From Chitinophagales bacterium (GTDB taxonomy: Bacteria; Bacteroidota; Bacteroidia; Chitinophagales; UBA10324): a DNA stretch of 64,000 nucleotides. The stretch is from NCBI GenBank assembly GCA_025056305.1, contig JANWWJ010000022.1:124001-188000 (forward strand). Reading direction: 5' to 3'. Below, piece after piece: positions 36,181 to 41,694 of the stretch. Each line of letters opens with the position of its first letter. Within the stretch, counting starts at the first letter, position 1. A program made the position numbers and the translations under genes. The notes beneath the pieces were generated by a model. The model was not told the origin of the DNA, did not search any database, and worked only from the letters and a program-made list of their open reading frames with translations.

Positions 36181-37233
36181 ATGGCTGTTTCTGATACCCC
36201 CTTTGATCCGAACGATGCTGCTGCAGCAAACGGCATCTTTGGCTTGCCGCACCAGCCGGAAGAAGCGCGCGTAATCATCCTGCCCGTTCCTTGGGAAGTT
36301 ACCGTGAGCTACCGAACCGGAACGGCACAGGCAGCACAGGCTATCCTGCGCGCTTCGGTCCAAGTGGATTTATATGATGCCGATTTTCCGGACGCCTGGA
36401 AAAAGGGCTTCTTTATGCTGCCGCCAGACAAAAAAATTGCTCGCAAGGGTCAAGACTTGCGCAAGCTGGCCGAAAACCATCTAAATCACTTGCTTTCGGG
36501 CAAGAAAACAAATGCAAAGCATTTAAAAAAAATAAATGAAGGATGCAGGTGGCTCAATGATAGAGTGCGCCAAGAAGTAAGCCACTGGCTCGATCAAGGC
36601 AAACGCGTGGTGTTGCTGGGCGGCGATCATTCCACCCCCCTTGGTTATTTGCAGGCTCTTGCCCAACGCCATACACAATTCGGCATTCTGCATCTGGATG
36701 CCCATTGTGACTTGCGAAAAGATTACGAAGGTTTCACGTACTCACATGCCAGTATCATGCATCAAGCGCTCCTTATGCCTCAGATATCGCGGTTGGTGCA
36801 GGTAGGCATCCGCGATTACTGCGAAGCGGAATGGCAGCGCATTCAAAAAAGCAATGGGCGCATCGTCGCTTTTTTAGACCGCGACCTAAAACGCCAACAA
36901 TTTGCAGGCACTTCATGGCTGTCGCAATGCGCCCAAATCGTGGACGCGCTTCCGGAAAAAGTTTACCTTTCTTTTGATGTGGACGTTCTTGCACCGCATT
37001 TATGCCCCAACACCGGCACCCCAGTGCCCGGTGGGCTGGAATTTGAGCAAACACTGACGTTGCTGTTGCACGTCGTGCATTCGGGTCGTCACATCGTGGG
37101 CTGCGATCTTACGGAAGTATCGGTTGGTAACAGTAAGAAAACCGTTTCAGATGCATGGGACGCCATCGTGGGAGCGCGCTTGCTGTACAGGCTTGCCTGT
37201 CTGATGGCCGAAACCGCACCTACTGCCGGATAA
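36181..37233 (+). CDS. Arginase/agmatinase/formimidoylglutamase family enzyme
   Basis: A 350-residue ureohydrolase-fold enzyme. The binuclear Mn2+ site is complete: LLGGDHSTPLGY, LHLDAHCDLRKDYEGF, and SFDVDVLAPHLCPNTGTPVPGGL. CDLTEVS and the final helix are also typical. It belongs to the long Bacteroidota branch, with an insertion of about 40 Lys-rich residues (105-145) between the first and second strands. These proteins are variously annotated agmatinase or formimidoylglutamase, and substrate is not decided by motifs. There is no his-degradation or polyamine gene beside it. I chose ATG 36181; a TTG at 36169 is possible. Its last 14 bases overlap the convergent esterase-like gene. Confidence 0.85.
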   Translation: MAVSDTPFDPNDAAAANGIFGLPHQPEEARVIILPVPWEVTVSYRTGTAQAAQAILRASVQVDLYDADFPDAWKKGFFMLPPDKKIARKGQDLRKLAENHLNHLLSGKKTNAKHLKKINEGCRWLNDRVRQEVSHWLDQGKRVVLLGGDHSTPLGYLQALAQRHTQFGILHLDAHCDLRKDYEGFTYSHASIMHQALLMPQISRLVQVGIRDYCEAEWQRIQKSNGRIVAFLDRDLKRQQFAGTSWLSQCAQIVDALPEKVYLSFDVDVLAPHLCPNTGTPVPGGLEFEQTLTLLLHVVHSGRHIVGCDLTEVSVGNSKKTVSDAWDAIVGARLLYRLACLMAETAPTAG

Positions 37234-39418
37234 GAGGCTGAGTGAGCCTGAAGCTTTCAGAGGTGACGACCAACAGATAACTGCCTGGAGGCCAGCCCGA
37301 CGCATCAAAGCTAAAGAGGCTGCCCTCGGTGATTTGACTTACGTGGTGTTCTGCCAACAGCGCACCGGTGAGTGCATACACCTGTAGCTTCAACTGGCTG
37401 GCCGCGGGAAGACATATCGTAAACCGGCCGTCAGAAGGGTTTGGATAAACAGTCAGAGAGGGCCTCCCGGAATCAGTGAGCGCCTGGATGCGGCTGAAGG
37501 GTGTCGTCTGAACGCGAATGATGTTTCCTTCTGGATATATTTTGACTTTTTTAATGGTCAGAGGCTTTGGTACACCGTTGGCATATTTCTGCTTGATGGT
37601 TCCGATTTTGATTGTATCACCGTTGTGGATGTTGCACCAGTAGAGCGTGGTTTTTTTAGGAAATCCTTTAAAGTGTTGCGTTCGCTGCAAGGTAATGTCC
37701 ACTCGGGCAAAAGTCGGTAGTGCCGCCGGAATAAGGGAATTATCCAAGAGGGTATCGGCTTCGATCCAAACGAAAGCTTGCCAAAAGCTTGCCGAATCGA
37801 TCACCGAAGAGGGATTGAACTGATAAAAGCCGTGCAGGGTGCCGATGTCGTCACCACTATAATACGGTGGTTGGGGATTGGGAATGCTTCCGGGATTTCC
37901 ATCCAGTTCTCCGTTGCTGAATGCCGGATAGGATGACTTGACGGTGAGCGGACTAAGGCGGCTGAGCTTTAAGGTAGACCACATTGCGTTTTCTCCGTCA
38001 TGATCCCGCAAATCCCAATACCAATAGCCGCCAATATTCAAGCTTTGGACGGTTTGGTACAAATGAACTTTCTCTTCCCAACAAGTCAGCTCATCGCTTT
38101 TTCCATTGATCGCGTGAATAACCGGCACAGGTTTGTACTTGATATAATCCAGCATGTGGTTGGTGTTGGTCAGGTCATAGACACGGAAAAATTCGCCGGG
38201 ATGATTAGGCTTGGGGATGTCGGTAGACAGATTAACCGAATCCTCGTTTCCCCAAAGGCGACGAACTTCACTGCGGGCACTCTTACCTTCATTGAATTTG
38301 CAGTCCGGGTTGCTGTCATCGGGAGCATTGAGGTTGTACTTGGCCATAGAAATAACAGCGCCGACATAACGCTCCGGCCTGAGGGTGGCTAGCAAGAGCG
38401 CTGCTCCGCAACCCATGGATACTCCGTTTAGATACATGCGATTGGTGTCTATGGCTCCTGGCCAGTTGGAAATGATCCACCGCAAAGTCCATTCTACACG
38501 GTGAAAGGTGTATGCTTTAATAATCCCTGAGGTTGGAGGGAGTGTAGCAGAGTTTAAATTGTAGATGTCCACTGCTTCATGGTAACCCAACCAACGGGTG
38601 TTGGCCCCCTCAGGATTAAGTTTAAAAGCGGGAATCCAGTCGTCCAACGTTACTTTCCAACAGTCCCCCAAATTGGCTGAAATGGCAGCATTGACAAAAT
38701 CACCATTGCCACCATGGAATTTGATATACATCGGCAACGATCCAGACGTTCCTTTTTTGATGATGCCGAAATGAAAGGCCAAACAACCCTCGTTGGCCAT
38801 GGCTGGATAAGTGCCCACGCCCACTTTACCACCGTAATGAACATATATCTCCATAGAATCGTTTTTACCGCCGGCCTTGATTTTTTTCACGAAGTAGGCC
38901 TTGATGGGATCGAGCTGCTGATAGACAGGAGTCACCGTGGCATTGCTACCTGCCGTCACCGACCAGTTCGGAGCTTTAGAACCATAATCACACCGCACGG
39001 CGAAATAGGCCGGAGCATTTGCCTGGGTACAGTTCATCACGAAAAATCCCTGCGTGGAATCCAGAACCTGTTTCGGCGCATCGTTGATTACAAAATATTC
39101 TTTCAGCGTAGGGATGCGCAATGCGTAGGTAAGCCGGAAATTGAAAGCAGAATTGTAAGGCACTCTCCCCAGGTAAACAGATTGGGAGAAGTTGGTGTTG
39201 GTAATGGGTTCACTGTTGGTGTAAACGTAATAAAAGCCTGAGTCCACCCCCGGTATATTGGTCCATGTAATAAAGATTTGCCCATTGCGGTATGCAGCTG
39301 AGATATTGGTGACGGTTTGAGCAGCCAAACTGCCCGCATATGCGAGCCAAGCTTGCCACACCCAAAATTTGAAAAGACAAGCAAAGAATGTTTTATACAT
39401 CATCGTAGAAATTCTCAT
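37220..39418 (-). CDS. Secreted esterase-like protein with T9SS sorting domain (copy 1)
   Basis: A 732-residue exported protein. A signal peptide (ending AGSLAAQ) is followed by an Fn3-like domain (ISAAYRNGQIFITWTNIPGVDSGFYYVYT), a second N-terminal domain to about residue 190, and an alpha/beta-hydrolase-like core. The core has a nucleophile elbow GVSMGCG (Ser 334), a likely Asp in INGKSDELTCWEE, and a likely His in WDLRDHDGENAMW. Between them lies DDSNPDCKFNEGKSARSEVRRLWGNED, also strongly kept in copy 2. The last 70 residues (LTVYPNPSDGRFTI, then SGWPPGSYLLVV) are a T9SS type A sorting domain, sending it to the cell surface. Substrate unknown; PHB-depolymerase-like esterases are the nearest fold I can suggest. 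I chose ATG 39418, with 39403 possible. Confidence 0.82.
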   Translation of the reverse strand: MRISTMMYKTFFACLFKFWVWQAWLAYAGSLAAQTVTNISAAYRNGQIFITWTNIPGVDSGFYYVYTNSEPITNTNFSQSVYLGRVPYNSAFNFRLTYALRIPTLKEYFVINDAPKQVLDSTQGFFVMNCTQANAPAYFAVRCDYGSKAPNWSVTAGSNATVTPVYQQLDPIKAYFVKKIKAGGKNDSMEIYVHYGGKVGVGTYPAMANEGCLAFHFGIIKKGTSGSLPMYIKFHGGNGDFVNAAISANLGDCWKVTLDDWIPAFKLNPEGANTRWLGYHEAVDIYNLNSATLPPTSGIIKAYTFHRVEWTLRWIISNWPGAIDTNRMYLNGVSMGCGAALLLATLRPERYVGAVISMAKYNLNAPDDSNPDCKFNEGKSARSEVRRLWGNEDSVNLSTDIPKPNHPGEFFRVYDLTNTNHMLDYIKYKPVPVIHAINGKSDELTCWEEKVHLYQTVQSLNIGGYWYWDLRDHDGENAMWSTLKLSRLSPLTVKSSYPAFSNGELDGNPGSIPNPQPPYYSGDDIGTLHGFYQFNPSSVIDSASFWQAFVWIEADTLLDNSLIPAALPTFARVDITLQRTQHFKGFPKKTTLYWCNIHNGDTIKIGTIKQKYANGVPKPLTIKKVKIYPEGNIIRVQTTPFSRIQALTDSGRPSLTVYPNPSDGRFTICLPAASQLKLQVYALTGALLAEHHVSQITEGSLFSFDASGWPPGSYLLVVTSESFRLTQPLIRQ

Positions 39419-39432
39419 ATGGCCAGTCCTAT

Positions 39433-41613
39433 TTATTGAATCAGACACCATCTGACGACATATTGATCGGTCACCTGAAGGCGCACGAAATAAATGCCTG
39501 TCGGCAAATGCATGCCTGAAAAAGAAAAAGCCGTTTCCAGACCGTTTCCAGCTAAAGATTGTACTTGAAGCGTGCGCCCATAGCCATCCAGCAAATACAA
39601 GAGACCCGTGGAGTGTTCAGGAATCAAAACCGTGCCCTTAATGAGATGACGCGCAGGCGAGCCATGAAGCTGCAAACCGATCGTTTTACTACTTGAAAGC
39701 TGCAGGCGCTGATATTGACCTTTACAAAGTTTGACGGTGAGCACGCTTTTTCCGGTGTCAATGCGAACAGCGGGTATAGTGATAGGCAAAGGCCCTTTGG
39801 TGTCGTACTGTATGGTGACCGATCCACTTTGGGAACCCGTAGGATAGGTATTAGTCCAGCACAGTTCAGTTCCCGGTGTAAAGCCTTTGAACTTTTGCGG
39901 CCGCCTTATGGTGACATCCGCAATAAAATGATCGGGCATAACTGAAGGATATTTCCCACCGGAGAGCAAGGTCTGTTGGAAGGCAAATAATTGAATCTGC
40001 CACATGGTGTCGCTGTCTATGATGCTGCTTTCAACCCAGTCCACATTTCCGTTAATAGCTCCTACCGGATCTCCATCATAATATGGAGGCAATGGGTTAT
40101 ACGTGTCGCCGGGGTTTCCGTTACACGTACAATAGCTAAAGGCGGGAAAACTCCTGTTGCGGGCGTAGCGAAGCATGGCTTTGAGGTTGAGAGGCTTCCA
40201 TTCTTTTTGCCCTCCGCCGTGGCTGCGCAGGTCCCACAGGTAAAGGCCTCCGATGCGGTATTGACTGGATGCCTCATAAACCCCGATTTTTTCTTCCCAG
40301 CAGGTATTGTCGTCTTCTTTACCGTTCAAAGCCTGCGTAAAGGTTAAGCCTTCGCGTTGCAGCGCAGCCATCATGTAGCCGACATTGGTAAAGTCATAGA
40401 TGCGCAGGTTGTTGCCTGGATTGTTCGGGTCGGGCAAGTCCGTGAATAGGTTTGTCTGATCTTCATGCCCCCATAAAACGCGGGTTTCTGTACGTGCCAA
40501 GCCTCCTTCATTGTATTTGCAATCGGGATTACTGTCGTCGGCGGCAGCCATGTTTAGTTTGCCGTCGGTAGCCCCGCCGCAAGCATATGCTGTGGGATAG
40601 GCCAACAATTGCGACCATACGCCTGCCGTTCCCTGCGAGCTGCCCACCAGATAAAGGCGGTTGGTGTCGATGGCGTTGGGCCAACGGCTCAGAATCCAAT
40701 TCAGCTCCCACCGGATCCGACGCACGGTGTAAGCTTTGATCACCCCGCTTACGGGGGGAGCATCTTGCGGTGAGGCTTTATACACATCGAAATTTTCATG
40801 ATGCCCAAGCCATCGGGTATTGAAACCGTTGGCCGAAAAGTTGAAATTGGGAATCCAGTCGTCAAAAGAGATTTTCCATGAGCTATCGATGACTACGCCT
40901 ATAGCATTGCTGATGAAGTTGCCATTACCGCCGTGAAACTTTAGAAAGCCGGCATTCTTGCCGTTGATCGGCCCGCTTTTTATAATGCCGAAGTGAAAGG
41001 CCAAGCATCCCTCATTGCTCATTTCCGGGTAATAAGTGTTGGCCCACTTGCCCCCGTAGTGGAGGTACACATCCATCCGTTCACCATTGTTGCTTCCTGG
41101 AAAATCCACGTTGCTTTCCTGAAGGTAGGCTTTGACGGGAGCCACTTTTTGAACCACGCCAAAGCCTGCCTCCAAAGAGTTGGCACCGGGAATCACCATC
41201 CAATTCGGCGACGTATTCCCATAATCACAGCGAACGGCGAAGTAGGTGATCTGATTGTTTTGCGTACAGGTGTAAACGAATACATTTTGATCCAGACGTA
41301 CCATCTGTCGCGGTTCATCGTTGATAACCAGCCTTCGAGGCTTGTTGTCGGCCGCAGCTTGCATGAATCTTATGTCCAGGGAGAAATTGTAGGGCACCCG
41401 ACCCAAATAAGTACTGCTTTGAATGTTTGCCGCAGTTATGGGATGGGCATTGGCATAAACATAATAGAAGCCACTGTCCACTCCGGGAATATTGTTCCAG
41501 ACAATAAAGATTTGGCCGTGTCGGTATTCAGCTTTCAAACCCGTAACTACTTGTGCCTGCGCTGAGAGGACCCAACCCCAAAGACACGAGAGCAAGAGCT
41601 GGCAAATACGCAT
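39433..41613 (-). CDS. Secreted esterase-like protein with T9SS-type tail (copy 2)
   Basis: A 726-residue tandem paralogue of the gene at 37220-39418, with the same order of parts. These are a signal peptide (CLWGWVLSAQAQ), Fn3-like domain (LKAEYRHGQIFIVWNNIPGVDSGFYYVYA), and a hydrolase core with elbow GSSQGTAG (Ser 326), ALNGKEDDNTCWEE and WDLRSHGGGQKEW. The motif DDSNPDCKYNEGGLARTETRVLWGHED aligns without gaps to copy 1. The tail (LLYLLDGYGRTLQVQ, then MHLPTGIYFVRLQV) is a T9SS-like domain, though the usual YPNP start is missing. The elbow's middle residues differ, so activities may have diverged. Copy 1 starts 14 bases later, so the pair is one operon. I moved the start to ATG 41613. Confidence 0.82.
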   Translation of the reverse strand: MRICQLLLSCLWGWVLSAQAQVVTGLKAEYRHGQIFIVWNNIPGVDSGFYYVYANAHPITAANIQSSTYLGRVPYNFSLDIRFMQAAADNKPRRLVINDEPRQMVRLDQNVFVYTCTQNNQITYFAVRCDYGNTSPNWMVIPGANSLEAGFGVVQKVAPVKAYLQESNVDFPGSNNGERMDVYLHYGGKWANTYYPEMSNEGCLAFHFGIIKSGPINGKNAGFLKFHGGNGNFISNAIGVVIDSSWKISFDDWIPNFNFSANGFNTRWLGHHENFDVYKASPQDAPPVSGVIKAYTVRRIRWELNWILSRWPNAIDTNRLYLVGSSQGTAGVWSQLLAYPTAYACGGATDGKLNMAAADDSNPDCKYNEGGLARTETRVLWGHEDQTNLFTDLPDPNNPGNNLRIYDFTNVGYMMAALQREGLTFTQALNGKEDDNTCWEEKIGVYEASSQYRIGGLYLWDLRSHGGGQKEWKPLNLKAMLRYARNRSFPAFSYCTCNGNPGDTYNPLPPYYDGDPVGAINGNVDWVESSIIDSDTMWQIQLFAFQQTLLSGGKYPSVMPDHFIADVTIRRPQKFKGFTPGTELCWTNTYPTGSQSGSVTIQYDTKGPLPITIPAVRIDTGKSVLTVKLCKGQYQRLQLSSSKTIGLQLHGSPARHLIKGTVLIPEHSTGLLYLLDGYGRTLQVQSLAGNGLETAFSFSGMHLPTGIYFVRLQVTDQYVVRWCLIQ

Positions 41614-41694
41614 TTCAGGGTGAAAATTAGCACCTGTACAAGACAGAACGTAAGGCCTATGCACAACGAGCTATCGAAGTGTGTCTTGCTGCAG

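Follow-up and report, generated by a model that had tools for sequence, protein, structure and literature searches.

Two adjacent genes in a Chitinophagales genome, which appear to encode secreted hydrolases, raise the questions of which enzyme class they belong to, whether they represent a new family and what they might act on. Both genes (termed A and B) lie within the window, i.e. the whole stretch of 64,000 nucleotides that was analysed. In our reading, to which we assign a probability of roughly 0.78, A and B are members of a paralogous Sec- and T9SS-exported serine hydrolase family with a PF00756/esterase D-type core, and are predicted esterases. The architecture that reads best is an Fn3-like N-terminal domain, an esterase core, a C-terminal beta-sandwich and, in most members, a T9SS tail.

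Gene layout, domains and export signals

A and B are arranged head-to-tail on the minus strand, with B upstream of A and 14 bases between them, and share 42% identity across 727 residues. Their extents were set by taking the first plausible ATG as the start; for B, the frame continues without a stop beyond its ATG as far as a GTG at 41664. Each has a 1:1 ortholog in a sister species of the same genus (73% identical for B), where the B-A gene order is retained. The surroundings comprise CcmE/CcmF-like, arginase-family, Maf, menaquinone-biosynthesis, GT2 and LptF/G genes, and no glycan-degradation locus was seen among these housekeeping neighbours in the window. The features of both genes are as follows.

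39433..41613, minus strand: gene B, secreted alpha/beta-hydrolase (726 aa from ATG at 41613)
41554..41613, minus strand: B signal peptide (MRICQLLLSCLWGWVLSAQA), identified by eye
41149..41547, minus strand: B N-terminal all-beta (Fn3-like) domain, nearly all strand in the model
40153..41133, minus strand: B alpha/beta-hydrolase core
40921..40935, minus strand: B HGGNG, oxyanion-hole-type motif immediately past a core strand
40636..40638, minus strand: B Ser343, predicted nucleophile (GSSQG)
40459..40539, minus strand: B DDSNPDC...LWGHED block, between core strands 6 and 7
40312..40314, minus strand: B Asp451, predicted catalytic acid
40219..40221, minus strand: B His482, predicted catalytic base
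39718..40152, minus strand: B C-terminal beta-sandwich (D-x-T-x-RR-x-Q-x-F motif)
39436..39711, minus strand: B T9SS-type sorting tail, degenerate
37220..39418, minus strand: gene A, secreted alpha/beta-hydrolase (732 aa from ATG at 39418)
38918..39313, minus strand: A N-terminal all-beta domain (alignment to B)
37934..38902, minus strand: A alpha/beta-hydrolase core (alignment to B; TIGR01840 E 3.7e-4, under cut-off)
38417..38419, minus strand: A Ser345, predicted nucleophile (GVSMG; family alignment)
38240..38320, minus strand: A DDSNPDC...LWGNED block (family alignment)
38093..38095, minus strand: A Asp453, predicted catalytic acid (family alignment)
38000..38002, minus strand: A His484, predicted catalytic base (family alignment)
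37505..37933, minus strand: A C-terminal beta-sandwich (alignment to B)
37226..37450, minus strand: A T9SS type A sorting tail (TIGR04183 35.6 bits against a cut-off of 23; PF18962 31.9 bits, also above cut-off)

This layout agrees with the first-pass annotation of the locus, which had described two neighbouring genes sharing a signal peptide, an Fn3-like domain, a hydrolase-like core and a T9SS-type tail. The start of A is also a plausible signal peptide by eye, and the Fn3-like N-terminus corresponds to an all-beta domain in the model of B. In Pfam, siblings matched the PF18370 beta-sheet domain below threshold in this region and nothing above it. The sorting tail is clear in A and weak in B, where the tail alone scored 16.3 bits (cut-off 23); the tail of the B ortholog in the sister species scored 30 bits. 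The genome encodes a full-length SprA (2499.8 bits) and ~119 T9SS type A tails above cut-off. Together, the tails and SprA point to surface export, as had been proposed. With ~119 tails counted in this genome alone, its small size (2.4 Mb) gives the impression of a T9SS-heavy proteome. One paralog (L042, G000 C38:57370-59235) and its ortholog (L051) both end after the C-terminal sandwich, with no T9SS tail in either, and their export route or fate may differ.

Conservation and predicted fold of the catalytic core

To score conservation, 66 family members drawn from eight genomes were aligned, and nine distant relatives were checked separately. We number residues by the full ORFs, in which the serines previously given as Ser334 and Ser326 are Ser345 (A) and Ser343 (B). 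The Ser, Asp and His proposed as the catalytic triad are present in both proteins and were invariant in 66/66 members and 9/9 distant relatives. The core has 15 invariant columns in the 66-member alignment, and the family-wide invariants (B numbering) include GQxF near the N-terminus, Ser343, GKxD with Asp451, Trp456, Asp478 and His482. As Asp478 is kept in only three of the nine distant relatives, compared to all nine for Ser, Asp451 and His, it lies outside the triad. In these relatives the oxyanion loop and the nucleophile elbow have their textbook form, with motifs of the HGGGG and GHSMG type, respectively. GxSxG is not strict within the family, the final Gly being absent in 18/66 members. 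The variable elbow positions change freely across the family, and the elbow differences between A and B, previously taken as a sign of different substrates, therefore say little about substrate.

The DDSNPDC block, once thought to be the most conserved segment, proved to be clade-specific. It is strong in the clade containing A and B (n = 15), altered in a second (n = 24) and deleted in a third (n = 27), and was rejected as a whole-family hallmark because one of the three clades (27/66 homologs) lacks it. The A/B clade has invariant cysteines of its own at positions 220, 382 and 455. Two others, Cys602 and Cys647 in the C-terminal sandwich, co-occur in 13/15 clade members and are both gone in A and its ortholog; that they are present or lost together suggests a putative disulfide.

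Structure prediction and a Foldseek search, which were among the checks put forward with the original claims, were run on B. The AlphaFold model of the B core had a mean pLDDT of 94.0 and a pTM of 0.93. In this model Ser343 (model Ser311) sits directly past strand 300-310, Asp451 (model Asp419) three residues past strand 410-416 and His482 (model His450) directly past strand 442-449. The predicted order thus matches the canonical alpha/beta-hydrolase arrangement, with the triad placed after strands 5, 7 and 8. VIA-align ranked S-formylglutathione hydrolase/esterase D types first, with a Z of 22.3 for both 3i6y (257 residues aligned, 3.3 A) and 7yvt (S-formylglutathione hydrolase), followed by Ag85 and S9 enzymes at ~19. 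The model therefore predicts an esterase D/Ag85-type alpha/beta-hydrolase fold for the core, in keeping with the esterase-like serine hydrolase first proposed. The C-terminal domain was predicted as a beta-sandwich (pLDDT 90.6). Its matches, to the beta-sandwich portions of CBMs and glycoside hydrolases, were weak (Z ≤6.6), and no Foldseek E value fell under 0.001.

The S9 prolyl oligopeptidase family shares this catalytic-domain fold, and A and B could in principle be secreted S9-type serine peptidases, which use the same core to cut peptide bonds. The top Foldseek rows for B were DPP4-like and other S9 enzymes, albeit at a low TM of 0.25-0.30. PF00326 (S9) was matched by 7/64 members (best 1.4e-5); two siblings other than this best one reached 16.5-17.5 bits against 22.6. 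However, esterase D types scored higher and spanned nearly the whole target, the B model lacks a beta-propeller, and neither A nor B gave a Pfam match to PF00326, whereas the commonest Pfam family among the siblings was PF00756 (Esterase; 32/64 cores, best 5.8e-8). We consider a peptidase role improbable, though the best placed of the competing explanations.

Sequence profiles pointed to esterases as well. Against solved structures, the family profile was nearest to the acetylxylan esterase 5x6s (9.3e-7); its other matches included LC-Est1 (3wyd, 9.9e-6), the esterase 3doh (8.6e-5), which we take to be Thermotoga maritima EstA, the S-formylglutathione hydrolase 3fcx, the PHB depolymerase-family esterase 8daj and the feruloyl esterase 7xrt. 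All of these matches centre on the nucleophile elbow. The PF00756 gathering cut-off (22 bits) was exceeded by six of the 14 paralogs in the genome and by one other sequence (L098); in the genome scan A reached 12.1 bits and B was not among the matches listed. Half of the 64 cores match this model and those seven sequences pass its cut-off, so we take the catalytic domain to be a divergent esterase of the PF00756 type. The earlier suggestion of an undescribed family consequently stands in part. No Pfam or NCBIfam model spans the full-length proteins and we found no description of the family in open-licence papers, but the term fits the whole architecture only, as the fold and chemistry are already known.

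Size, age and range of the paralog set

The novelty of this family lies in how large and how old its paralog set is, and in how narrowly that set is distributed. The genome (2.41 Mb, 99.5% complete) carries 14 full-length copies, including A and B, and the sister species also has 14. Across the host family, matches were found in 8/16 genomes and 5/8 genera, with 6 to 14 per genome, some of which are fragments in broken assemblies. No copies were found in six genomes (93-100% complete) of one genus of the host family (g6). Outside the host family, single and more distant copies occurred in 8/150 genomes of another family of the same order and in one genome of another family of the class, and in a phylum sample of 395 genomes our genome was the sole match; these large scans scored 3 to 9 candidates per genome and may miss copies. 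A contig scan for relatives gave three matches, all Bacteroidota MAGs and two named Chitinophagales.

In the family tree, each of the 14 copies pairs with one copy from the sister species, with a support of 100 throughout. The two genes are adjacent in both species, as the idea of a tandem duplication would have it, but they are not sisters: B falls outside a group in which A clusters with copies located on other contigs and in other genera (SH-aLRT 92 in a quick tree). We thus rejected the idea that the two genes arose by a recent duplication in tandem. Across the ortholog pairs dN was 0.08-0.19, highest in A, and dS was 2.5-3.4 in three pairs and saturated beyond estimation in the other eleven, which indicates purifying selection.

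Tandem arrangements of other members were also observed. Outside the window, four more members lie head to tail with long tails on another contig of the same genome (L044, C41, 36000-52000), with a triosephosphate isomerase-like ORF upstream (by eye). In the matching array of the sister species (L053), one copy carries MopE motifs (PF11617), Ig_7 (PF19081) and a T9SS tail. Three A/B-clade members occur in tandem in another genus (L060, G007 C12:75000-85000); one of these had an in-frame TAA in one aligned stretch, yet an open frame of 732 aa in another search.

Candidate substrates and relation to known esterases

Acting as esterases, the proteins would be exported by Sec and T9SS to the cell surface or medium, where Ser343/345 would attack the ester with His482/484 as base and Asp451/453 as acid, the HGG loop being the likely oxyanion hole. 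An acyl-enzyme would form and then be released by water. The DDSNPDC block lies in a segment that links core strands 6 and 7; this segment, and perhaps the C-terminal sandwich, probably shapes the binding site. As the segment differs between clades, substrates probably vary among the 14 paralogs.

An ester polymer or glycan ester outside the cell, as first proposed, is a possible substrate. Plant hemicellulose would be one target, with A and B removing its side groups as CE1-like feruloyl or acetylxylan esterases. Such enzymes (5x6s, 7xrt, 5vol) are among the best matches, with 5x6s the nearest solved sequence and a VIA-align Z of 18.6 for 5vol, but the sequence alignment is limited to the elbow. 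Searches of the near-complete genome found neither GH10 nor GH43, both of which gave matches in control genomes. This argues against xylan esters, which are an unlikely substrate, and a role on xylan side chains was disfavoured; nor do the neighbours of A and B form a glycan-degradation locus. We regard CE1-like activity as slightly less probable than a peptidase role. Depolymerisation of PHB or another polyester appears equally doubtful. Many members matched the extracellular PHA-depolymerase type 1 model NF050058 (56/64, best 3.7e-12) or the PHB esterase model TIGR01840 (31/64, best 1e-9), but the similarity is weak and confined mainly to the nucleophile elbow, and A and B scored far under the curated cut-offs (A, 20 bits against 107.85 for TIGR01840 and 17.3 against 150 for NF050058; B, 13.5 against 150). 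That the proteins are non-enzymatic surface proteins retaining the fold for binding or adhesion, as the large paralog set and the Ig-like and MopE-type tails of several siblings might suggest, is very improbable given a triad invariant in 75/75 sequences despite identities to B as low as 26%.

Returning to the secreted esterase reading, the retention of 14 old paralogs in a 2.4 Mb genome and in its sister species probably reflects commitment to an extracellular ester-rich food or matrix. More tentatively, the lineage might feed on something other than hemicellulose, whether a polyester, an acylated exopolysaccharide, a lipid or a peptide, by means of a conserved set of ~14 substrate-diverged surface esterases; we think this possible, with the odds against it. 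If true, these esterases would form a toolkit distinct from the SusC/SusD systems usual for glycans. The family also offers a compact source of candidate secreted esterases, in three clades that differ between core strands 6 and 7.

Among known systems, Thermotoga maritima EstA (3doh/3doi) and LC-Est1 (3wyd) are profile matches of the family. To our knowledge, neither has a C-terminal sandwich with the D-x-T-x-RR-x-Q-x-F motif or a T9SS tail. As far as it is cited in PMC10189120, the 2009 work on EstA provides a precedent for a beta domain beside such a core. The closest relationship in fold is with S-formylglutathione hydrolase/esterase D (PF00756; 3i6y, 7yvt, 3fcx), with which the family has its core (aligned over ~257 residues) and the order of nucleophile, acid and base in common. 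Sequence identity is 11-13%, however, and whilst esterase D chains are ~280 residues long, the A/B proteins also have a signal peptide, additional beta domains on either side of the core and a T9SS tail.
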